Made by a program: the position numbers and the translations under genes. Shown in pieces: positions 3,952 to 53,334 of a stretch of 64,000 nucleotides of DNA (the stretch's first letter is position 1; the number at the start of each line of letters is the position of its first letter). Under the pieces are notes generated by a model that saw only the letters and a list, made by a program, of their open reading frames with translations, was not told the origin of the DNA and did not search any database. Source of the stretch: an uncultured Roseobacter sp. (GTDB lineage Bacteria > Pseudomonadota > Alphaproteobacteria > Rhodobacterales > Rhodobacteraceae); contig NZ_CANMDB010000011.1 in NCBI RefSeq assembly GCF_947496515.1, positions 62,001 through 126,000 on the forward strand, written 5' to 3'.

Positions 3952-5076
3952 TTAGCCTTTGCGCTCCACCAGAACGGAGCCGACCGAATAGCCCGCCCCG
4001 AATGAGCAGATGAGCCCTTTGTCTCCGGGTGCCAGATCATTGGAATACTTGGAAAAAGCGATGATGGATCCGGCAGAGGACGTATTGGCATAGTCCTGGA
4101 GGATGTTGGGTTGTTCGGCGGGTTCCGGCGTCCGCCCGAGCACCTTGCGACCGATAAAATCGTTCATAGTCTTGTTGGCCTGGTGCAGCCACAGCCGCTT
4201 GAGATCGTCGGCGCCGACCCCCTCATCCGCCATATGCGCGGCGATGTGTGCACTGACCATCGGCAGCACTTCCTTGAAGACCTTGCGGCCATTCTGCATG
4301 AACTGCATGTCGCGTCGGTCGGCCATTCCTGCGGGCCTGGTCCGCCTCAGAAAGCCGTTGTTGTTGCGGATATTATTGGAAAAGACCGTGGCGCAGCGGG
4401 TTGATTTCACTTGGAAATAGCTGCTGGCTGCGTCTTCTTCCCGCTCCAGCAGAACGGCTGTCGCGACGTCACCGAAAATGAAATGGCAATCGCGGTCGCG
4501 CCACTCCAGATGGGCCGAGCAAATCTCGGGGTTGATGACAAGCGCCTTGCGGACACTTCCGGACCGGATCATATCGCTGGCTGCCTGGATCCCGAAGGTC
4601 GCAGAGGAGCAGGCGACATTCATATCGAACGCGAAGCCATTGATCCCCAAGAGATCTTGCATCTCAACGGCGATAGCGGGATAGGCGCGCTCCATATTGG
4701 AGGCAGCGCAGATCACCAGATCAATCTCATCCACATTTCGTTGAGCATTTTCAAGTGCTTGCCGGGCGGCTTTCACACTGATCTCGGCCATAAGCGACGG
4801 CTCGTCATCTTTCCGTTGAGCAAAACGGGGGTGCATGACCTTTGGGTCTAGTATCCCTGTCTTATCAATCACATAGCGCTGTTCGATCCCGGAGGATTTG
4901 AGAATGAACTCTTCGGAGGAATACGCTTTCGCTTCCAGAGTACCTGAGGCGATTTCATCAGCGTTTTCAGCGTTGTAAAGATCGACATAGTTGTTGAAAG
5001 CCTTGACCAGCTCGGCATTCGTGATGGTCTCGGAGGGCGTGAAGACGCCGCTTCCTGTGATGGCTGGGGTGTGCAT
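3952..5076 (-). CDS. beta-ketoacyl-ACP synthase III-like condensing enzyme
   Basis: 374 residues, about 50 longer than housekeeping FabH. The thiolase-fold triad is complete: C156 (NVACSSATFG), H298 (WLHQANKTM) and N331 (DYANTSSAG), so a decarboxylating Claisen condensation is likely. The extra length lies mostly in an N-terminal insert (about residues 30-95). Such long FabH relatives occur as second copies in proteobacteria and may use unusual acyl primers. The housekeeping fabA-fabB-fabI genes are far away at the right end. The gene is single, with 181 bp upstream that contains an array of 11-bp repeats (5163-5217), a possible control region. A Crp/Fnr-type regulator gene is its upstream neighbour on the same strand. 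Confidence 0.88.
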   Translation of the reverse strand: MHTPAITGSGVFTPSETITNAELVKAFNNYVDLYNAENADEIASGTLEAKAYSSEEFILKSSGIEQRYVIDKTGILDPKVMHPRFAQRKDDEPSLMAEISVKAARQALENAQRNVDEIDLVICAASNMERAYPAIAVEMQDLLGINGFAFDMNVACSSATFGIQAASDMIRSGSVRKALVINPEICSAHLEWRDRDCHFIFGDVATAVLLEREEDAASSYFQVKSTRCATVFSNNIRNNNGFLRRTRPAGMADRRDMQFMQNGRKVFKEVLPMVSAHIAAHMADEGVGADDLKRLWLHQANKTMNDFIGRKVLGRTPEPAEQPNILQDYANTSSAGSIIAFSKYSNDLAPGDKGLICSFGAGYSVGSVLVERKG

Positions 5077-5162: not shown

Positions 5163-5217
5163 CTGCGGTACAGCGTCGGTATCACGTCGGTACAGCGTCG
5201 GTATCACGTCGGTGCGT
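5163..5217. repeat. array of five 11-bp units (CGTCGGTANNN)
   Basis: Units run at exact 11-bp spacing: a degenerate CTGCGGTACAG (5163-5173), CGTCGGTATCA (5174-5184), CGTCGGTACAG (5185-5195), CGTCGGTATCA (5196-5206) and CGTCGGTGCGT (5207-5217). The same data read as a perfect 22-bp tandem duplication at 5167-5210. The array lies upstream of the KAS III gene, about 90 bp from its start. A related array in reverse orientation is at 51969-52012. Confidence 0.9.
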
Positions 5218-5257
5218 GGCGCTCTGTCTGGCAAGGTTTGGGTAAGACATCCCCTGC

Positions 5258-5986
5258 TCAGATCAGGGGACGCCTGCGATGTCCTTCAAGCTCGATCTGT
5301 GCCACATCGGCCAGCGCCTGCAGATCGTGGATGTGCAAGGATCCGTCAGACAAGGTGAGCAGTTGCCGCTGCCGAAGCCGGGCGATTGTCTTGTTGGTAT
5401 GCACCAGCGACAGGCCAAGCGCATCTGCGATGTCCTGCTGTTTGAAGGGGAAGGGCACGGCGCCATTCTGTTGCATGTTGAGTTCGTCGGCTCTCTGGAA
5501 CAGGCGCACCATGGCCCACGCCATCGAGGACAAGGCATCGCGCTGTCCGACTGTTGTGAGCGACTCGCCCAGAAAATGCTCTTCGGTGGCGGCGAGCCAC
5601 GTGATGTCGAACGCCCGCGCGGTCGAGCTTTTGAAGAAGTCGAAAAAATCGCTGCGGTCAAAAACACACAGGGTCATGCGGGTCGTGGCCTCGACCGAAT
5701 GACCCATCTCGCCCAGCATACCGGCCTGAAGCCCGATGAAATCGCCCGGGAAGATGAAGTTGATCACCTGCCGCTGACCGTCCGGCAGCGTCTTGTATCT
5801 CAGCCCCATGCCCCGCAACGCGGTGTAGAGTTGCGGTGCGTTGGAGCCTTCCATAAGTATGGGCGTGCCAGGATCAACAGACAGCTCGCCTGATTTGAAG
5901 CGCGCTGTTTTTTTCAATTCGTCCTGCGTCATGTCGTCAAAAATCGACTGGCTGCGCAGCGGACAAGCCTTGCAGTCGGTGGTCAT
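5258..5986 (-). CDS. Crp/Fnr-family transcriptional regulator
   Basis: 242 residues: a cyclic-nucleotide-binding-like beta barrel (about residues 15-130) and a C-terminal Crp helix-turn-helix (about 165-225, with QQDIADALGLSLVHTNKTIA). The N-terminus has only two cysteines (C5 and C8, DCKACPL). The four-cysteine set of true FNR is not visible, so an oxygen-labile 4Fe-4S cluster is doubtful. A two-cysteine or redox-insensitive role is an alternative. It is divergent from the small gene at 6026 with only about 40 bp between them. Targets unknown. Confidence 0.88.
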   Translation of the reverse strand: MTTDCKACPLRSQSIFDDMTQDELKKTARFKSGELSVDPGTPILMEGSNAPQLYTALRGMGLRYKTLPDGQRQVINFIFPGDFIGLQAGMLGEMGHSVEATTRMTLCVFDRSDFFDFFKSSTARAFDITWLAATEEHFLGESLTTVGQRDALSSMAWAMVRLFQRADELNMQQNGAVPFPFKQQDIADALGLSLVHTNKTIARLRQRQLLTLSDGSLHIHDLQALADVAQIELEGHRRRPLI

Positions 5987-9649: not shown

Positions 9650-12600
9650 TTAACCCTGCAATGCTTTGACGCCTACATCACCGTCGGCCTGAGCCCGGAT
9701 CGCCAGAGCGGCGGCGTGGCTGCCCGCGGCCGTCGTGAAATAGGGGATCCGGTCGTAGAGCGCGATGGCCCGAATGGATTTGCTGTCCTCCACCGCCTGC
9801 GCGCCTTCGGTGGTGTTCATCACCAGATGGACCGCGCCGTCCTTCATCAGATCGGTGATATCAGGGCGACCCTCGTAGACCTTGTTGACAGTCTCTGCCG
9901 CCAGCCCGTGGTCGGTCAGCCAACTGGCGGTCCCGCGGGTGGCTATGATGCTAAAGCCCTGATCCAGCAAGATTTTAGCGGCACTGAGCATATCGTCCGT
10001 CTTGTCCATATCCTTGATCGACAGGAACGCGCAGCCGGAGCTGGGCAGCATCGTCCCCGCGCCCATCTGCGCCTTGAGAAAGGCCCGGGGGAAATCGCGG
10101 TCCCAGCCCATGACCTCTCCGGTAGAGCGCATTTCCGGCCCCAGCAAGGTGTCGACCCCGGGGAACCGGGCAAAGGGCAGCACCGCTTCCTTGACCGAAA
10201 ACCACGGCATATGGGGGTCGGCCAGCGTCATCGGATCGCCCAATGGCAAGACGTCATCGTAGGCGGCACCGGCGTCATAGGGCGGGCGCTGCGGGAACTC
10301 CGCCAGCTTGGCCCCCGCCATGATCCGCGCGGCGATGGAGGCGATGGCGCTGTCGGTGGCCTTGGCGACGAAGGGCACGGTGCGGGACGCGCGCGGATTG
10401 ACCTCAATGAGGTATATCTCACCCTCTTTGATCGCAAATTGGATATTCATCAGGCCGACCACGTTGAGGGCACGGGCAAGCGCGCGGGTCTGTTCCTCCA
10501 CGTCGGCGATGATCTCGCGGCTGAGCGAATAAGGCGGCAGCGAACAGGCGCTGTCACCGGAATGCACGCCTGCTTCCTCGATGTGCTGCATGATGCCCGC
10601 CACATGCACGTCCGTCCCGTCGCTGAGCGCATCGACATCCAGCTCCACCGCGCCGGAAAGATAGCTGTCGAGCAGCACCGGGCTGTCCCCGGAGACAACC
10701 ACGGCGGAGGTGATGTAGCGTTCGAGCGAGGCCTGATCGCGCACGATTTCCATGGCACGCCCCCCCAGCACGTAGGACGGGCGGATCACCAGCGGAAAGC
10801 CGATATCCTCAGCGATCTCAAGGGCTTCGGCATCAGAGTGGGCGATCCCGTTCTTCGGTTGCTTGAGGCCAAGCGACTGCACCAGCTGCTGAAACCGCTC
10901 GCGGTCCTCGGCCAGGTCGATGGCATCCGGGGTGGTGCCGAGAATGGGAATGCCTTCGGCGTGGAGCGCCTGCGCGATCTTGAGCGGGGTCTGACCGCCA
11001 AACTGAACGATAACACCGTGGAGCGTGCCGTTGTCCTGTTCGACCCGCAGGATTTCCATCACATGCTCAAAGGTGAGCGGCTCAAAATAGAGCCGGTCGG
11101 AGGTGTCATAATCGGTGGAGACCGTCTCGGGGTTGCAGTTGACCATGATGGTCTCGAACCCTGCGTCGGTCAGCGCGTAGCAGGCGTGGCAGCAGCAGTA
11201 GTCGAACTCGATCCCCTGGCCGATGCGGTTGGGCCCACCGCCCAGGATGACGACTTTCTTGCGATCCGTGGGGCGGGCCTCGCATTCGGCTTCGTCGAAG
11301 ACCGGGCTTTCGTAGGTGGAGTACATGTAGGGCGTCTGTGCCTCGAACTCCGCCGCACAGGTGTCGATCCGTTTGAAGACGGCTGTGACGCCTGCGGCAC
11401 GGCGGGTGCGGCGCACGTCGGCTTCCGACTGGCCCGCAAGATGTGCCAGGCGCGCGTCCGTGAACCCCATCATCTTGAGCTGCCGCAAGCTGGCGGCATC
11501 CTCGGGCAGGCCGCTGGCCTCCACCTCCTGCTCGGCCTCGATGATCTCGCGGATGCGGGAGAGAAACCACGGATCGAACTTGGTCACGGCCTGGATCTCG
11601 TCGTCCTCCAGCCCTTCGCGCATGGCCTGTGCAATGACGCGAAGCCGGTCGGGGGTCTGCTGGCTGAGCGATTTGATGATCGCCGCCTTGCCGGAAGTGG
11701 GGTCGGCGGCGCCGGGGATGTGGATCTCGTCAAAGCCGCTGAGGCCCTGTTCCATGGACGCCAGCGCCTTTTGCAGCGATTCGTGGATCGTGCGCCCGAT
11801 GGCCATGGCCTCGCCCACGGATTTCATCGCGGTGGTCAGATCCGGCGTGCTACCGGGGAATTTCTCAAAGGCGAATTTCGGGATTTTGGTGACCACATAG
11901 TCGATGCTGGGCTCAAAGCTCGCGGGCGTGACCTTGGTGATGTCGTTGTCGAGCTCATCGAGCGTGAAGCCGACCGCGAGCTTGGCGGCGATCTTGGCGA
12001 TGGGAAAACCCGTGGCCTTGGAGGCCAGCGCCGAGGAGCGGCTGACGCGCGGGTTCATCTCGATCACCACCATGCGGCCATCGGCGGGGTTCACCGCCCA
12101 TTGCACGTTGGAGCCGCCCGTTTCCACCCCGATCTCGCGCAGCACCGCGATCGAGTGGTTGCGCATGATCTGGTATTCCTTGTCCGTCAGCGTCAGGGCG
12201 GGGGCGACGGTGATGCTGTCGCCCGTATGCACGCCCATGGGATCCACGTTCTCGATGGAGCAGACGATGATCGCGTTATCGGCCGTATCGCGCACCACCT
12301 CCATCTCGAATTCCTTCCAGCCGAGCAGGCTTTCGTCGACGAGGATTTGCCCGACAGGGGAGGCATCCATACCGGACCGGCAGATCGCCTCATAGTCGTC
12401 GCGATTGTAGGCAACGCCGCCGCCGGTGCCGCCCATGGTGAAAGCAGGGCGAATGATGGCAGGCAGTCCGACATCTTCCAGCGCTTCAAGTGCCACTTGA
12501 ACACCGGCGGCCAAGTCTTTCTTTCCATTGCCATCCATGGGGGCGGTCACGATGGTGGCGCGGGGATTCTCGATCCCCAGCCGGTCCATCGCCTCCCGAA

Positions 12601-27630: not shown

Positions 27631-28823
27631 TGGCGCGCGCATTTCTGGTGGTAATGGACTCCGTCGGGATCGGTGGCGCGCCCGATGCCGAGCAGTACAG
27701 CAATGGCGCTGTCGCCGACACCGGGGCCAATACCGTGGCACATATTGCCCAGGCCTGCGGTCGGGGCCTGGCCTCCGACGGGCGGCTGGGGCCACTGCGC
27801 CTGCCGACGCTGGACGCCATGGGGCTGGGCCGTGCGGTCCATCTGGCCAGCGGTGCCCCGGCGCTGGGCCTCGGGCGGGAACCGCAGGGCAGCTGGGGTG
27901 TCGCAACCGAGGTATCCCGCGGCAAGGACACTCCCTCCGGGCATTGGGAACTTGCGGGCGTGCCGGTGCCGTGGGACTGGCACTATTTTCCCGATACCGA
28001 TCCCGCCTTTCCGCCGGATCTGGTGTCGCAGGTCGCGTCGCTCGCGGGGACCGACGGGATCCTTGGCAACTGCCACAGCTCCGGCACGCTGATCATCGAG
28101 CGGCTGGGGGCGGCGCATATCCGAACCGGCAAGCCGATCTGCTATACCTCGGCGGATTCAGTCTTTCAGGTTGCCGCACATGAGGACACATTCGGCCTCG
28201 ACCGGCTGTTGTGGCTCTGCGAGACGCTGGCACCCGCGCTGCATGACATAAAGGTTGGACGGGTGATTGCGCGACCGTTCAAGGGCGGGCCGGAGAGGGG
28301 GTTCGTGCGCACCCCCAACCGCCGGGATTACTCGGTGGCACCACCCGCGCCGGTTCTGACGAACTGGGTTCAGGATGCAGGGCGTCGGGTCTACGGGTTG
28401 GGCAAGATCGGCGACATCTTTTCGATGCAGGGGATCGACCGCGTCCGAAAGGGGCCCGATGAGCGGTTGATGGCGCATCTGCATGATCTTGTTGCCAGCG
28501 CAGAAGACGGCAGCCTGGTCTTTGCCAATTTCGTCGAGTTCGACAGCCTCTATGGTCACCGGCGCGATGTCTCCGGTTATGCCCGCGCGCTGGAGTGGTT
28601 TGATACTCAGATCGGGGCCTTGCTGCCAAAGCTGCGGGAGGATGACATGCTGCTGCTGACTGCGGATCACGGCAATGATCCCACCTGGGTTGGCACAGAT
28701 CATACCCGCGAACGGGTGCCGGTGCTCATCGCCGGACCCGGTCGGGAAACCTTGGGTCATATCGGTTTTTCCGATGTGGCCACCATCGTGGCGCGGCATC
28801 TGGGCGTGCCGGTGCCGGACTAG
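27630..28823 (+). CDS. deoB: phosphopentomutase
   Basis: 397 residues. It converts (deoxy)ribose 1-phosphate to 5-phosphate, the step after DeoA. Alkaline-phosphatase-superfamily metal motifs are present: [14 protein letters not shown] at the N-terminus and [18 protein letters not shown] near 345-365, with KDTPSGHWE in the middle. Its ATG overlaps the deoA stop. A deoC aldolase is not in the window. Confidence 0.97.
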
Positions 28824-28909
28824 GACAGCGCCCGCTTGCGGCGCCCCGGTCTCCGGCGCTACACCGGCACCAACGCCCGGCTGCCGGGTCTGCAACGAGG
28901 AAGCCTGCC

Positions 28910-29542
28910 ATGTCCGATCATCTCACCGTCGTCGATCACCCGTTGGTCCAGCACAAGCTGACCATCATGCGCGACCGCGACACGCCGACAGCTGTCTTTC
29001 GGCAGTTGTTGCGCGAGATCAGCCAGCTTTTGGCCTATGAGGTCACCCGGGGTCTGCCGATGACCACAAAGCGGATCGAGACCCCGATGCAGAGCATGGA
29101 GGCGCCCACGCTGGCGGGCAAGAAACTGGCGCTAATCTCGATCCTGAGAGCGGGCAACGGCTTGCTCGACGGTGTGCTGGAGTTGATCCCCTCGGCGCGC
29201 GTCGGCTTCGTCGGGCTCTACCGGGATGAGGCGACGCTGCAGCCGGTACAATACTATTTCAAAGTGCCCGAAGGCCTGGATGACCGGCTGGTGATTGCGG
29301 TGGATCCGATGCTGGCCACGGGGAATTCCTCTGCGGCGGCGGTGGATCTGCTGAAGAAAGCGGGGGCCACCAACATCCGCTTTCTGTGCTTGCTGGCCGC
29401 GCCGAAGGGTGTTGCGCGGATGCGCGAGGCGCACCCCGACGTGCCCATCGTGACCGCGGCCGTGGACACGCAGCTCAACGATGTAGGCTATATCGTGCCT
29501 GGTCTGGGGGATGCGGGCGACCGCATGTTTGGCACAAAATAG
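28910..29542 (+). CDS. upp: uracil phosphoribosyltransferase
   Basis: 210 residues. It makes UMP from uracil and PRPP, finishing the salvage route begun by Cdd and DeoA. The PRPP loop [11 protein letters not shown] and the uracil site [15 protein letters not shown] are intact. AACGAGGAAG precedes the start. It lies 86 bp after deoB on the same strand, so it may share the operon or have its own promoter. Confidence 0.97.
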
Positions 29543-29606
29543 GGCCACTGCTTGCTTTTCGGGCAGGGCTGGGGCAGGGTTTCGCCGGTAACCGCTTGAG
29601 GCTCTT

Positions 29607-30215
29607 ATGAAAATCATTGCAGCGCTCATTCTTGCCATGCTGATGGCACCCGTGCCCGCACCGCTTCGCGCGCAGAGCTCCGCGGCACCGCAGGAGTTTC
29701 CGCCGGCGAGCTTCACGGGGCGTCAATATGTGGACAGCGCCGGATGTGCCTTTATTCGGGCGGGGAGCCCGGGGGCGGTGCAGTGGGTACCGCGGGTCAC
29801 GCGCCAACGGCGGCAGGTCTGCGGTCAGACACCGACCTTTGCGCGCGCACCGGCACCTGCGGCCCAAACCGCGCCACGGGCGGCGATTGTCCTGACGCCC
29901 GCACCGGTGGCCCGCCCGGGGGTTGCCAACCGCGCGCCCGGTGCCGCGCCGTCCGCTCGGGCCACCGGCCTGGTAGGCACGGTGGTGACACCCGACACGG
30001 CAGCGGCCAAAGGGGTCTCACCCCTGACCCGGGTGATTCCCAAACACCTGTACGAGCGACACCGCAACGCACGCAAGACCACCGTGCCCCCCGGATACCG
30101 GTCCGTTTGGGAGGACGACCGTCTGAACCCGCGCCGCGCCGAGCAGACGCTGCAAGGCCACCAACAGATGCGCGAGATCTGGCGGCCCGGCGTACCAACC
30201 CGGCCCGCTGACTAG
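29607..30215 (+). CDS. secreted Ala/Pro-rich protein of unknown function
   Basis: 202 residues. A clear signal peptide ([20 protein letters not shown], cleavage after LRA) is followed by a short segment with two cysteines ([12 protein letters not shown] and [10 protein letters not shown], likely a disulfide), a low-complexity Ala-Pro-Arg linker (about 75-125) and a basic C-terminus. It resembles the small N-terminal module seen ahead of linkers in Rhodobacteraceae envelope proteins, but no SPOR or other known domain follows. Located 64 bp after upp. Function not recognised. Confidence 0.72.
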
Positions 30216-30253
30216 GACTGACATGGCCTGGCCGCGGGAGGGTCGTCCGGGGA

Positions 30254-30275
30254 GAAAGGCCTTCGAAGGCCTTTC
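30254..30275. repeat. 22-bp perfect palindrome (TTCGAA centre)
   Basis: Half-site GAAAGGCCTTC followed by its reverse complement, no loop. It lies 38 bp after the stop of the secreted-protein gene and could form a cruciform or an 11-bp RNA hairpin; no T-tract follows. Confidence 0.9.
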
Positions 30276-30343
30276 GGCGCAGACTGTACAGGGTGCGCCT
30301 TGCCGGTCCGCGGTTTTTATTGCGATCAGCATCCAGGCGGGAA

Positions 30344-30365
30344 AACGGCGTTTCGAAACGCCGTT
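30344..30365. repeat. 22-bp perfect palindrome (TTCGAA centre)
   Basis: Half-site AACGGCGTTTC followed by its reverse complement. It is 68 bp from the palindrome at 30254 and has the same length and the same TTCGAA centre. Confidence 0.9.
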
Positions 30366-30700
30366 GCCGTGTGTCGCCGGTAGTTTGAGCGAAAAGCCGG
30401 TGCAGCGTGCGGGAAGGATTTCCAGTCGCACGAAGGTGCTTTGCCCCTGAAAAACCGGCCGACCCGATCCGCGTCACTGCGTCATCGCGGATCCCGCAGC
30501 GAGACGGACCTGACGAACCGCGCTCTTTCTGGAGCGCCCGTCCCCAAACCTGATACGTCCGGTGTCAGTATGGAACCGCCGCCCATTTTGCCAAAGGCAA
30601 ACCTCCGGTTTGACGAGGGCGGAACGGTGCGGCGCACCAGTACCTGTTGCCGGGGCGCTCTGACCCAAAGCGGGGTCTCTGGGGTTTTTGGCTGGTCGCT

Positions 30701-31717
30701 CTAGCCTCCACAGATCCCCTGCAGCCGCAGCCAGTCCGCATCGCTGAGCAGGGCCTTGCCCGTTTGCTCGGCCATCGGATCGGCTTCGACCAAAGGCAGC
30801 ACCGTCTCGCCGGTGATGTCACGCGCATAGGCATAGGGGGTGCTGCGCACCCCTGCCTCGGCAAACACGGCCAGAAGCGCCCCGGGCGCGGGGTCGACCC
30901 TGGGCTGGGTCAGCATGTATTCGGCATAGGCGTCGAGTGTTTCGGGCGCGATACGGCCCGTGGTGAGCAATTGGAAACTCGCCCGTGCGCCCGCCACCGC
31001 GAGCAGATCCGCCAGCGGATCCTGAGTGCGTGCGGCCCACGCCTCAACCAGCGCGAACCCGGCCGCCACATCGGGTTCCTCGAAGTCTTCCACCAACGCC
31101 CGGTCCAGCAGGATATGTCCGCCCGGCAGATGCAGGCTGGTGGTGATGCCCCCGGGCAGGATGCTGATCGGTCCGGTGCCGAGGCGGGCGCGCAGGGTGC
31201 TGAGCGCACGGCGTCCCGCGCTGTTGGCACAGGCTGCCCCGGCCATCCGTTCAATCCGGCTCAGCAGCGCTGCCCCGATCTCCGCCCGTTTGACCTGTGG
31301 CACGACCGTCGTGGCATGGCGGTTCAGCGCCTGTGGCACGCACAACACCCCCGCCAGCGCAACAGCCCCCAACGACAGCCCCAATCCCAGCCAGCGCAGC
31401 CGCCCGGGCCGTGGGCGCGCCCGCTCCACCGCGCGGCGCAGCGTCTCGATGGCCTCGATCATCTGCGCCTCATCCGTGCCGAGCTCCAGCGTCTCGCCAG
31501 GATCCCCCTCGGGGTAGAAAAGCGCGGGCCGCTCGCCCGGATTGACGCGCTGGATGGCGGCCAGCGACCAGTGGGTCAGAGGCCGGTCGCCCAGATCCGC
31601 AATGGTCAGCGTCGCCTCGCCGATGGAAATCACGACCTCACGGCGCTGATCCTCGGGCGTCGCACGCCAGAGCGCCGTGGCCTCGAGCCGTTCATATCGT
31701 GTCAGGGCCGTTTTCAC
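30701..31717 (-). CDS. membrane protein, possibly a degenerate M48-like fold
   Basis: 338 residues. The N-terminal 100 residues are soluble (a PH-like or YcxB-like beta segment, VVISIGEATLTIADLGDRPL). One membrane helix follows (about 108-128, LGLGLSLGAVALAGVLCVP), then a 205-residue extracytoplasmic or cytoplasmic domain. In that domain, LPGGHILLDRALVEDFEEPD followed by VAAGFALVEAW aligns by eye with the region around HExxH in M48 peptidases, but both zinc histidines are missing. Catalysis is therefore not expected. Function unknown. Convergent with the secreted-protein gene. Confidence 0.7.
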   Translation of the reverse strand: MKTALTRYERLEATALWRATPEDQRREVVISIGEATLTIADLGDRPLTHWSLAAIQRVNPGERPALFYPEGDPGETLELGTDEAQMIEAIETLRRAVERARPRPGRLRWLGLGLSLGAVALAGVLCVPQALNRHATTVVPQVKRAEIGAALLSRIERMAGAACANSAGRRALSTLRARLGTGPISILPGGITTSLHLPGGHILLDRALVEDFEEPDVAAGFALVEAWAARTQDPLADLLAVAGARASFQLLTTGRIAPETLDAYAEYMLTQPRVDPAPGALLAVFAEAGVRSTPYAYARDITGETVLPLVEADPMAEQTGKALLSDADWLRLQGICGG

Positions 31718-39713: not shown

Positions 39714-39856
39714 TGCGTTGATCATTTGTTTACCTAGAATGCCATAGCATCGGTCTTGCGGGGCAGGCTGGAGAGCCGAGCGTCGTGCAAGGTGACGCTC
39801 TGTTTTCACGGCCTCGGTGTATCGCCGCCCGATGAAAACAGAGCGGAGCTTCCCTG

Positions 39857-39876
39857 TCATCTTGCCAGAAAAACTC
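39857..39876 (+). repeat. diverged copy C of the dispersed repeat
   Basis: TCATCTTGCCAGAAAAACTC differs from copy A at two of 20 positions and is followed by the inverted repeat CGGAGGCTCCG. It has the same orientation as copy A and lies 144 bp from copy B. Confidence 0.6.
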
Positions 39877-40106
39877 CCGCCGGAGGCTCCGACAGGGGCG
39901 TCAGGGGGAGCGGTCAATCCGCTCGCACCCCCGGCGGCAAACCAGCGGTTATCGGGCCTTGCTTCGTGATCCTGAGCTGCTCTAGCCACCTGACCGTCAC
40001 CCCGTTCTGACTCGTTGCACCTTCGGACCGATGTCCAAGGCGGCGCGCCCCGCGTCATCTCGCCCGTGGCGCCCGGTTCGGTTGCCCGGGCCGCCCCCGG
40101 ATTTCG

Positions 40107-41925: not shown

Positions 41926-42327
41926 TTATTCGGCGGCGCTGCGGGGCGCGCGCATGGAGGTCAGCATTTCTTCGCCCCATTTCAGCTGGTCGGTCAGATC
42001 GGCAATGGCGGCGTCGAGCGCGGCGCGCTGTCGCTTCATCTCGCCCAGACGCTTCTGACCCACGGCATAGGAGGCCTCCAGCTGGCTTTGCTGCTGATCA
42101 CCACGGTCATAGAGGTCCAGCAGCTGGCGCAGCTCTTCGAGGTTGATGCCGAACTTCTTGCCGCGCAGGATGAGCTTGAGCCGCGCGCGGTCGCGGCGCG
42201 TGAAAAGCCGCTTCTGACCGTCGCGCAGCGGAAACAGCAATTCCTTGGATTCGTAGAATCGCAGCGTACGCGGCGTTACGCCAAAGGCATCGCACATCTG
42301 CCGGATGGTCATCGTTTCTTGGGTCAT
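41926..42327 (-). CDS. MerR-family transcriptional regulator
   Basis: 133 residues. N-terminal winged HTH ([20 protein letters not shown]) plus a C-terminal coiled coil (about 85-125) for dimerisation. No metal-binding cysteines at the C-terminus, so it is not a metal sensor. It is similar in length and sequence to the MerR gene at 42719. Its stop is 37 bp from the acyl-CoA dehydrogenase start, and a TGACGT dyad is upstream at 42402-42425. This points to a LiuR-like regulator of acyl-CoA oxidation. Confidence 0.92.
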
Positions 42328-42718: not shown

Positions 42719-43093
42719 TCAACCCTGGCCCAGCTCTCCGGCGACGCTGTCGCGCAGATCGCGCAATTCCGTGATGGCGTCTTCCAGCTGGCTGCGCTGT
42801 TCCGCCAATTCCTGCAACTGGCTGTCGGCCAGCTTGATCCAGGCGGCCATCTGCGCTTCGGTGCCCTCGTTCTCGTAGATCAGCAGCCACTGGCGGATGT
42901 CTTCGAGTTGAAAGCCGAACTTGCGCCCGCGCAGGATCAGCTTCATCCGCGCCCGTTCGCGCGGCCCGTAAAAGCGCGCGCGCCCCTCGCGGTCGGGCTC
43001 CAGCAATTCGATATATTCATAGTAGCGCAACGTGCGGGGCGTCACGTCGAACGCGGCGCACATCTCTTTGAACGTCAGGCGCTCGTCTGCCAT
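42719..43093 (-). CDS. MerR-family transcriptional regulator
   Basis: 124 residues. HTH FKEMCAAFDVTPRTLRYYEY and coiled coil at the C-terminus; no sensor cysteines. It is a paralogue of the 41926 gene: both share VTPRTLRxYE and the LKLILRGxKFGxxLEdIRQ-like segment. The two-gene arrangement beside beta-oxidation genes suggests paired regulators with related effectors (acyl-CoA or branched-chain acyl-CoA). Single gene, divergent from the thioesterase operon. Confidence 0.92.
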   Translation of the reverse strand: MADERLTFKEMCAAFDVTPRTLRYYEYIELLEPDREGRARFYGPRERARMKLILRGRKFGFQLEDIRQWLLIYENEGTEAQMAAWIKLADSQLQELAEQRSQLEDAITELRDLRDSVAGELGQG

Positions 43094-51162: not shown

Positions 51163-51768
51163 ATGACCTTGTCCGCCTCCGACGCCAACCGCGACGTCTA
51201 CGAACGTCAGGCCGCCGCCTTCGATGGTCAACGCTCCCGCGCGTTGTTCGAGGCGCGCTGGCTGGCCCGCTTTGCCGCCTGCCTGCCCGATGGCGCCCGC
51301 GTGCTCGATCTCGGCTGCGGCGCGGGCGAGCCCATTGCCCGCTGGTTCATGGCCGAAGGGTTCCGGGTCACCGGCGTGGACTACGCCGACGCGATGCTCG
51401 ACATCGCCCGCGCCCGCTGGCCCGACGGTGACTGGCGGCAGGGGGATATGCGCAGCCTCGATCTGGGCGCGCGGTTTGACGGCCTGATCGCCTGGGACAG
51501 CTTCTTTCACCTCACCCCGGACGAGCAGCGCGCCTGCATCACGCGCATGGCGGCGCATCTTTTACCCGGCGGGACGCTGATGCTGACCGTGGGGCCGGAG
51601 GCGGGTGAGCGCCACGGCACCGTCGGGGGAGAGCCCGTCTATCACGCGTCTCTCTCGCCCGCGGGCTATGCGAGCTGTCTGGAGGAGAACGGCCTGCGTC
51701 TCACCGGGTTTCTCGCCGAGGACGCCGAGACGGACAGCCACAGCGTTCTGATGGCGCGCAAGCTCTGA
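51163..51768 (+). CDS. class I SAM-dependent methyltransferase
   Basis: 201 residues. Motif [21 protein letters not shown], the acidic residue GVDYADAM and motif [15 protein letters not shown] of the Rossmann-like methyltransferase fold. Small-molecule O- or N-methylation is likely but the substrate is unknown. Single gene 76 bp after gcdH; a 22-bp palindrome starts 7 bp after its stop. Confidence 0.9.
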
Positions 51769-51911: not shown

Positions 51912-51968
51912 CGCGCCCGTTAACGCTGTCGCGCCTCAAGGCGAAAGAAGCGCCAAAACCGACCCGTG

Positions 51969-52012
51969 CACCGACGCAATACCGACGTGGTACCGACGTT
52001 CTACCGACAGGG
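51969..52012. repeat. array of four 11-bp units (reverse orientation)
   Basis: CACCGACGCAA, TACCGACGTGG, TACCGACGTTC and TACCGACAGGG run at exact 11-bp spacing. Read on the minus strand this is the same CGTCGGTA-type unit as at 5163-5217. It lies 84 bp beyond the stop of the enolase-superfamily gene. Confidence 0.9.
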
Positions 52013-52095: not shown

Positions 52096-53334
52096 TCAGC
52101 CGCTCTCCCGCGGTGCCGGGGCACCGCCTTCAAACGCATTGCCGTGCACGTAGTCGCAGGGCGCTTCCTGCATCTCCAGATGCAAGGCTGTCCCGGTATA
52201 GGGGTGTGCGCGGGCCAGCGCTTCGTCCACCTCGATCCCGAGCCCCGGCGCCTCCGGCGGGGTCACGAAACCGTCCTCCACCCGGATGCTGCCCCGGATC
52301 AACGCACCGTGAAACGGTGTCTCGATGGTCTCGATCATCAAGAGGTTGGGCAGGCTCGCGGCAAGCTGCACATTCGCCGCCCATTCCACCGGTCCGGCGT
52401 AGAGATGCGGGGCCACCTGCGCGTTGTAAACCTCTGCCAGTGTTGCGATTTTCTTGGCCTCCCAGATCCCGCCCGCGCGGCCCAGAGCGGGCTGCAGGAT
52501 GCTCGCCGCCCCGCTGCGCAGCACAGGGGCAAACTCGGCCTTGGTGCAGAGCCGCTCTCCGGTCGCAATGGGAATGCGCACGCCCGCCGCCACCTTCGCC
52601 ATCTCACCCACCGCATCGGGGGGCACGGGTTCCTCGAACCAAAGCGGGGCGTAGGGTTCCAGCGCCTGACCCAGCCGGATCGCGCCCGCGGTGGTGAACT
52701 GCCCGTGCGTGCCGAAAAGCAGATCCGCCCGGTCCCCCACCGCGCCCCGGATAGCCCGGCAAAAAGCCACTGATTGCGCAATGTCGCGCATCCCCGGCAT
52801 GTGCCCGCCCCGCAGGGTGTAGGGGCCCGCCGGGTCAAACTTCACCGCCGTATATCCTCTTGAAATACAGTCACTTGCAGCCTCGGCTGCCATCTCTGGC
52901 GAGGTCCAGAAATCATCTGGATTGTGCTGCGGCAGCGGGTACAGATAGGTATAGGCGCGGATACGGTCGTTCATCCGCCCGCCCAGCAGCGCCCAGACCG
53001 GTCGCTCGCGCGCCTTGCCCAGAATGTCCCAGCAGGCGATCTCCAGCCCGGAAAACGCGCCCATCACCGTGGGGTCCGGTCTCTGGGTAAAACCCGAGGA
53101 ATAGGCGCGGCGGAACATCAGCTCGATGTTCTCGGCGCTCTCGCCCGCCATGTGCCGCGCAAAGACATCCTCGATCACCTTGCGCATGGCCTCGGGGCCC
53201 ACGGCAGCGGCGTAGCACTCGCCCCAGCCGGTGATCCCGTCCGCCGTCGTCAGCTTTACCAGGATCCAGTAGCGCCCGCCCCATCCCGGGGCAGGGGGCG
53301 CCGTCACGATGATGTCGAGGTCCTTGAGACGCAT
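52096..53334 (-). CDS. mandelate racemase/muconate lactonizing (enolase superfamily) enzyme
   Basis: 412 residues. N-terminal capping domain (MRLKDLDIIVTAPPAPGWGG) and (beta/alpha)7-beta barrel. The second and third metal ligands are seen in LWFEEPVPPDA and GERLCTKAEF. The strand that should carry the first ligand reads LLFGTHGQF, where galactonate dehydratase has Asp-Phe-His-Gly, so Gly stands in place of Asp. General acid/base Lys near TAVKFDPAG and His in VAPHLYAGPVEW are kept. A sugar-acid dehydratase is the best guess. Next to a zinc alcohol dehydrogenase with a 14-bp gap, so one operon. Confidence 0.85.
   Translation of the reverse strand: MRLKDLDIIVTAPPAPGWGGRYWILVKLTTADGITGWGECYAAAVGPEAMRKVIEDVFARHMAGESAENIELMFRRAYSSGFTQRPDPTVMGAFSGLEIACWDILGKARERPVWALLGGRMNDRIRAYTYLYPLPQHNPDDFWTSPEMAAEAASDCISRGYTAVKFDPAGPYTLRGGHMPGMRDIAQSVAFCRAIRGAVGDRADLLFGTHGQFTTAGAIRLGQALEPYAPLWFEEPVPPDAVGEMAKVAAGVRIPIATGERLCTKAEFAPVLRSGAASILQPALGRAGGIWEAKKIATLAEVYNAQVAPHLYAGPVEWAANVQLAASLPNLLMIETIETPFHGALIRGSIRVEDGFVTPPEAPGLGIEVDEALARAHPYTGTALHLEMQEAPCDYVHGNAFEGGAPAPRESG

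Follow-up and report, generated by a model that had tools for sequence, protein, structure and literature searches.

The window analysed here is a stretch of 64,000 nucleotides from an uncultured Roseobacter sp., namely positions 62001-126000 of contig 11 in a 4.93-Mb draft genome of 61 contigs (G000 below, the own genome). It contains two short arrays of direct repeats, which raises the question of whether they belong to one dispersed family of elements and what such a family might do. Both arrays were read directly: each has four GTCGGT units at 11-bp spacing, on the minus strand in one and the plus strand in the other, and the predicted common 11-bp period and core on opposite strands were thereby confirmed. 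The features of the window are listed below; gene names, here and throughout, were given by eye unless a family search is cited.

3952-5076, minus strand: FabH-like ORF, with the 5175 array upstream of it (by eye, no family search)
5163..5217, plus strand: 11-bp array of a degenerate unit and four GTCGGT units (sequence, TRF, near-match count)
5163-5173, plus strand: the degenerate unit, 5' of the 5175 array (sequence)
5175, 5186, 5197 and 5208, plus strand: GTCGGT starts of the four-unit run 5175-5213 (sequence)
5214..5240, plus strand: 3' flank GCGTGGCGCTCTG, similar to the GCGCGGCGCGCGGTG motif behind many arrays (by eye)
5258-5986, minus strand: Crp/Fnr-like ORF, with the 5175 array downstream of it (by eye, no family search)
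51163-51768, plus strand: methyltransferase-like ORF, on the lower-coordinate side of the 51970 array (name by eye, no family search)
51919..51924, no strand given: GTTAAC, on the 3' side of the 51970 array (sequence)
51958..51963, minus strand: extra GTCGGT at 12-bp spacing, 3' of the 51970 array, ACCGAC on the plus strand (by eye)
51970..52008, minus strand: 11-bp array of four GTCGGT units (sequence, near-match count, by-eye alignment)
ending at 52096, minus strand: enolase-superfamily-like ORF, on the far side of the 51970 array (by eye, no family search)

Both arrays were reported by TRF. Matches to CGTCGGTANNACGTCGGTA with at most 3 mismatches were found seven times in the window, all in the two arrays, whereas 100 dinucleotide shuffles averaged 0.01. 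The 51970 array sits between converging genes, and the ORF lists agree with the original prediction that both arrays are intergenic, one of them upstream of a gene and the other in a convergent gap.

A search of the own genome with GTCGGT-N5-GTCGGT gave 63 forward and 60 reverse matches, and the same pattern read backwards gave none. The matches listed form at least 45 arrays in which GTCGGTAnnnC boxes follow one another every 11 bp; 42 of these were examined (C5:129608, C18 and C20 were left out). The exact GTCGGT units number two to five per array, typically four. Among 115 units chosen for GTCGG, the commonest letters are A at position 7 (88%), T at position 8 (75%) and C at position 11 (76%). 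Behind the last box there is often GCGCGGCGCGCGGTG, or else GCGCG with one more GTCGGT at 12-bp spacing; the extra unit seen beside the 51970 array recurs in this way in a number of own-genome arrays (by eye). GTTAA is enriched about ninefold within 60 bp of 40 arrays and about sevenfold within 120 bp; these folds were calculated from counts, with the other predicted intergenic DNA of the loci (crude gene calls) as baseline.

Three-unit GTCGGT matches also occur in relatives, in 10 of the 19 genomes of the genus and 13 of 248 genomes of the family, the own genome included. One of these 13 (G088) resembles another repeat; the reversed-pattern control across the 248 genomes gave 3 matches, in G211 only. 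The array-bearing genomes examined carry from about 6 to at least 52 arrays, the latter in G261, and within one genus some genomes have no exact three-unit match while another has at least 52 arrays. The arrays are confirmed to be real and widespread. The original prediction of a dispersed family rather than a chance duplication is borne out by at least 45 own arrays against none for the reversed control, and by the relatives; it would have failed if only two arrays existed and the unit lacked conservation, which is not the case. Another dispersed repeat, about 35-50 bp long, was also observed (L060, about 10616-10667; window, about 39848-39893, i.e. G000:C11:101848-101893); nine more places in the own genome match it at 86-98% identity.

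The arrays are polar, and their orientation was compared with GC skew. Of 42 own arrays, 36 have their boxes on the strand that is richer in G over the surrounding 20 kb, the leading-type strand (p 3e-6). In G261, for which 20 of at least 52 arrays form the orientation set, the count is 20/20 after removal of two 2-unit coding-like matches and 21/22 with them. The other counts are 9/10 in both G249 and G252; 6/6 each in G049 (GTATGG boxes), G055 and G210; 1/2 in G071; and 6/6 for six further arrays (two in G242 and one each in G210, G151, G176 and G125), all chosen out of longer lists without knowledge of their skew. Overall, 99 of 108 arrays in 12 genomes follow the G-rich strand. The pooled p of 3e-20 overstates the case, because some arrays are orthologous and not independent. 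Arrays with the palindromic GTGCAC core give no orientation and are outside these counts.

Replication was also approached through mnmG, whose position presumably marks the origin. In four near-complete chromosomes, the strand predicts the right arm for 28 of 32 arrays, which point from origin to terminus; the four misses are at arm fractions of 0.06, 0.73, 0.78 and 0.96. It had been suggested that orientation might follow the replichores and that copies might cluster near the origin or terminus. The first held by both measures; clustering towards the origin did not reach significance (KS p 0.11, with a mean arm fraction of 0.41), and the arrays are dispersed over both chromosome arms rather than confined to a replication origin. 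Gene direction was considered as the cause of the orientation and rejected: only 16 of 42 own arrays share their strand with the net direction of the local genes, and the neighbours come in all four arrangements (16 opposite/opposite, 10 convergent, 8 divergent and 8 same/same, by crude gene calls).

The GC skew of the window itself flips sharply from plus to minus at about 30 kb (cumulative maximum at about 28000-31000), between the two arrays, a pattern that a terminus or the border of an inversion would give. Two dif-like patterns gave no match, and none of the palindromes at 27.5-33.5 kb looked dif-like by eye. A dif site in Dinoroseobacter shibae is mentioned in PMC7901474, the available part of which does not give its letters. 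The window is not claimed as a terminus: the skew flips between the arrays, but no dif-like site was found.

The places of the arrays are partly conserved. When the own loci were set against 40 loci with arrays from G261, G249 and G252, an array was observed at the same place in 25 of 34 syntenic pairs, and the remaining 9 have no common array site. The shared-site pairs have 74-81% mean DNA identity and cover 13 of the 42 own arrays; the two window arrays have no syntenic partner among these 40 loci. The valS array is an insertion within the coding sequence, and at this site 19 genomes include 4 with GTCGGT, 3 with GTGCAC at 11-bp spacing, 10 without an array and 2 that were unreadable. Three-unit GTGCAC matches were found in 8 of 119 genomes, with several each in G253, G251, G262, G018 and G038. 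Among 20 GTGCAC loci, 9 fall in a gap where the own genome or a congener has a GTCGGT array, 4 are syntenic with the array at another place, and 7 have no syntenic partner.

A further survey covered the gap upstream of a chorismate mutase gene, which is followed by rpsP. Nineteen congeners include 4 with GTCGGT, 3 with GTGCAC, 6 with spacers of about 100 nt and no array, 3 in which the genes overlap and the site is empty, and 3 that lack the anchor. The gene is present in 89 of 90 family genomes, and 9 of the best 30 have an 11-bp array in the upstream gap; so do 15 of 80 named GTDB loci (kept from 506), where the other eight lags reach the array score in only 1/80. The two sets overlap, for example in G261. 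Six cores were observed in this gap, and many genera have no insert there:

GTCGGT: window genome and congeners
GTGCAC, also GTACACC: at the same site
GTACACA: Roseicyclus
ATGCACA, with variants: Paenihalocynthiibacter and others
GTATGG: Octadecabacter bin, G049
GTATGAC: G071

Every core seen keeps the exact 11-bp phase, mostly with four units at this site (by eye). In a scan of 9 genomes, GTATGG arrays were dispersed in G049, with 7 three-unit matches, and GTATGAC arrays occurred twice in G071. The dialects recur on distant branches, with empty sites between them, in a quick FastTree of 89 rows, whose deep branches are weak for that reason. While the dispersed family stood as predicted, a core that differs between lineages at shared sites had not been foreseen. 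By eye, the cores can be aligned on a common purine-T start followed by lineage-specific bases, as would be expected if one protein type had altered some of its contacts.

Three side observations concern single genomes. G262 has mostly GTGCAC arrays, plus one five-unit GTCGGT array. A GTCGGT array with near-identical unit order is found in three congeners (G262:C3:22808-22857, G254:C16:529553 and G255:C14:454251), and it may be a relic or a transferred segment. In G210, arrays lie directly behind terminator-like sequences (L314, L316 and L317), and several are preceded by a first box resembling GTCTGCA or CTGCA (both by eye).

These data suggest a tentative explanation, somewhat less likely than not: the arrays might be polar, helically phased sites of a cooperative protein with drifting specificity, acting on a chromosome mover. 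Each array would be a polar binding site of typically four boxes; spacing of exactly 11 bp implies equal contacts on one helix face. An unidentified DNA-binding protein would bind the boxes cooperatively, side by side, as four protomers or a tetramer. The sites would then be landmarks along both chromosome arms, pointing from origin to terminus, and would most likely act on a mover of the same polarity, such as the replisome, condensin or another translocase, possibly as a one-way brake or a loading mark. If the base preference of the reader changed between lineages, the boxes at the same sites may have changed along with it, giving the dialects. Protein binding, a single reader of drifting specificity and the use of the polarity are inferences from the sequence pattern, and neither the reader nor the function has been demonstrated. 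The wider claim, that the Rhodobacterales share a polar landmark code read by one undiscovered protein, which rewrites the same sites in new dialects when it switches recognition, is more doubtful.

Two candidates for the reader were rejected. MerR_1 proteins are present in 16/16 genomes tested, so their presence shows no pattern with the arrays. One conserved MerR protein, presumably the ihfA-linked one, has a nearly constant HTH core in 14 genomes whatever the dialect, and its few HTH differences, in G049 and G217 only, do not track the dialect. Two MerR_1 domain genes also lie close together on the minus strand of the window (42115-42312 and 42884-43075). FtsK is likewise without support as reader, as 20/20 genomes tested have a single FtsK_gamma, scoring much the same throughout (93-99 bits); only scores, not sequences, were compared.

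Some findings speak against the proposal. An array number from none to at least 52 within one genus is odd for a core chromosome function, and the recurrence of dialects in distant clades and the many genera without the chorismate mutase insert also count against it. So do the 9 of 34 syntenic pairs that lack a common site, the 4 of 20 syntenic GTGCAC loci with the array at another place, and the one GTCGGT array in the mainly GTGCAC genome G262. The chief doubt is that patchy copy number and clean empty sites fit an old mobile repeat entering at forks. Such a repeat, MITE-like but without inverted repeats and inserted in one orientation at gene borders, is the main rival, possible though doubtful, in which the dialects would be marks of different enzymes with common target preferences. 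The empty sites are indeed clean; for example, the genes of G265, G263 and G259 overlap where others have a spacer of about 100 nt. Moreover, the chorismate mutase array is flanked on both sides by (A/G)TC(A/G)GTCA in 4/7 array-bearing copies (G000, G251, G262 and G253, by eye), a possible 8-bp duplication. However, one flank differs in the other 3/7, start and stop codons also require this word, and three other syntenic array-less sites showed no clear duplication. The array inside valS and the patchy copy number between genomes would suit a mobile repeat, and replication-biased insertion has precedents in Tn7 TnsE and IS200/IS605.

Other observations speak against a mobile repeat. In 40 own arrays, bridging inverted repeats average 6.25 nt versus 6.35 in 160 controls, and the mean fold z is 0.28, with 2/40 below -2 and no hairpin. 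By eye, 14 G217 arrays have no common wider flank. One 81-bp query had no match in plasmid and phage collections, and the single GTCGGT match in viral contigs lies beside chromosomal-type genes (by eye). The viral contigs also gave 29 ATGCACA and 5 GTGCAC matches and none in a GTATGG scan; these include DnaA-box-like runs and, in phage genes of replication type, iteron-like repeats (by eye, in 13 contexts). The contigs L350, L352, L353, L354, L361 and L374 have 11-bp boxes with ATGCACA or GTGCAC cores, which in L352, L354, L361 and L374 lie inside ORFs resembling phage replication-type genes (by eye). Within the scope of the one query and the viral-contig scans, a phage or plasmid origin was rejected, and the viral ATGCACA and GTGCAC matches were set aside. 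Finally, the different cores at the same sites would require repeated independent insertion.

A transcription-factor regulon, in which the arrays are operators of a CarH/LitR- or PhoB-like regulator with 11-bp direct repeats, is unlikely. As described in the available part of PMC9304148, the CarH operator has three or four 11-bp direct repeats of the form nnnnTnnACAn, bound by a tetramer on one helix face. The tandem 11-bp repeats of the arrays fit this layout and the ATGCACA and GTACACA cores fit TnnACA, but most cores do not: GTCGGT and GTATGG misfit, and the own GTCGGTAnnnC does not match the full repeat. In several arrays the distance to a downstream start codon is about 20-50 bp; the own arrays, for which gene calls are crude and promoters unmapped, are not consistently placed relative to gene starts. 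Most arrays are in intergenic gaps of mixed context, convergent ones included, and 6/42 own arrays fall within a predicted gene (crude gene calls). The neighbours have no common function by eye and resemble unrelated housekeeping genes. The expectation that transcription control alone may not explain the arrays is supported by this mixed context, while the orientation tracks the G-rich strand and not the genes. The polar landmark or one-way obstacle is favoured over a regulon because orientation follows replication, not genes. A KOPS- or AIMS-like guide for FtsK would explain why the arrays point to the terminus on both arms, but it is very improbable, as each genome has some 45-50 phased arrays of 44 bp rather than a frequent 8-mer, FtsK_gamma has one copy and a similar score in array-rich and array-poor genomes, and ordinary GGGNAGGG octamers are themselves strand-biased in the array loci, with 118 copies on the array strand against 50 on the opposite one.

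If the polar landmark proposal is true, the arrays would join KOPS, Ter, parS and matS as chromosome signposts of a new kind, in which the whole set of sites changes its sequence and keeps its place, so that co-evolution of a protein and its targets could be tested at dozens of sites. If they are a mobile repeat instead, such strong replication-linked orientation without inverted repeats would also be unusual. Searches of an open-access library gave no description of the arrays; subscription papers were outside the scope.

Several known systems share single properties with the arrays. KOPS and AIMS are single 8-mers that occur in large numbers and are polar, with an orientation following the replichores. 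The arrays are likewise polar and follow the replichores (99/108; 28/32), whereas they are phased units of about 44 bp at conserved gaps, at least 45 per 4.9 Mb, and not frequent octamers. The iterons of plasmids and phages are short head-to-tail boxes at about one helical turn, located at a replication origin. A few such boxes with this spacing also make up each array; however, iterons and DnaA boxes are origin-confined, whereas the arrays occupy dozens of chromosomal places. REP and MITE elements differ in that the arrays (40 own) have no hairpin or terminal inverted repeats. DNA uptake sequence words are far more numerous than the arrays. In the Neisseriaceae, this sequence is a short genome-wide word with lineage-specific dialects, according to the available part of PMC3630211; the arrays share such dialects, whereas the uptake sequences, as far as that text describes them, are single words and not 11-bp arrays at conserved sites. 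The TAACTGA repeats of the Beggiatoaceae (PMC4679880, available in part) are also intergenic sets of 2-6 short direct repeats, many per genome; in that account, however, the 7-bp units are contiguous, mostly oriented to the next start codon, and of one word only. Finally, CarH/LitR operators resemble the arrays in their three or four tandem 11-bp repeats; whereas CarH operators are located, in the part of the source available, in the promoters of one or a few loci, the arrays are dispersed over the chromosome and oriented with replication.
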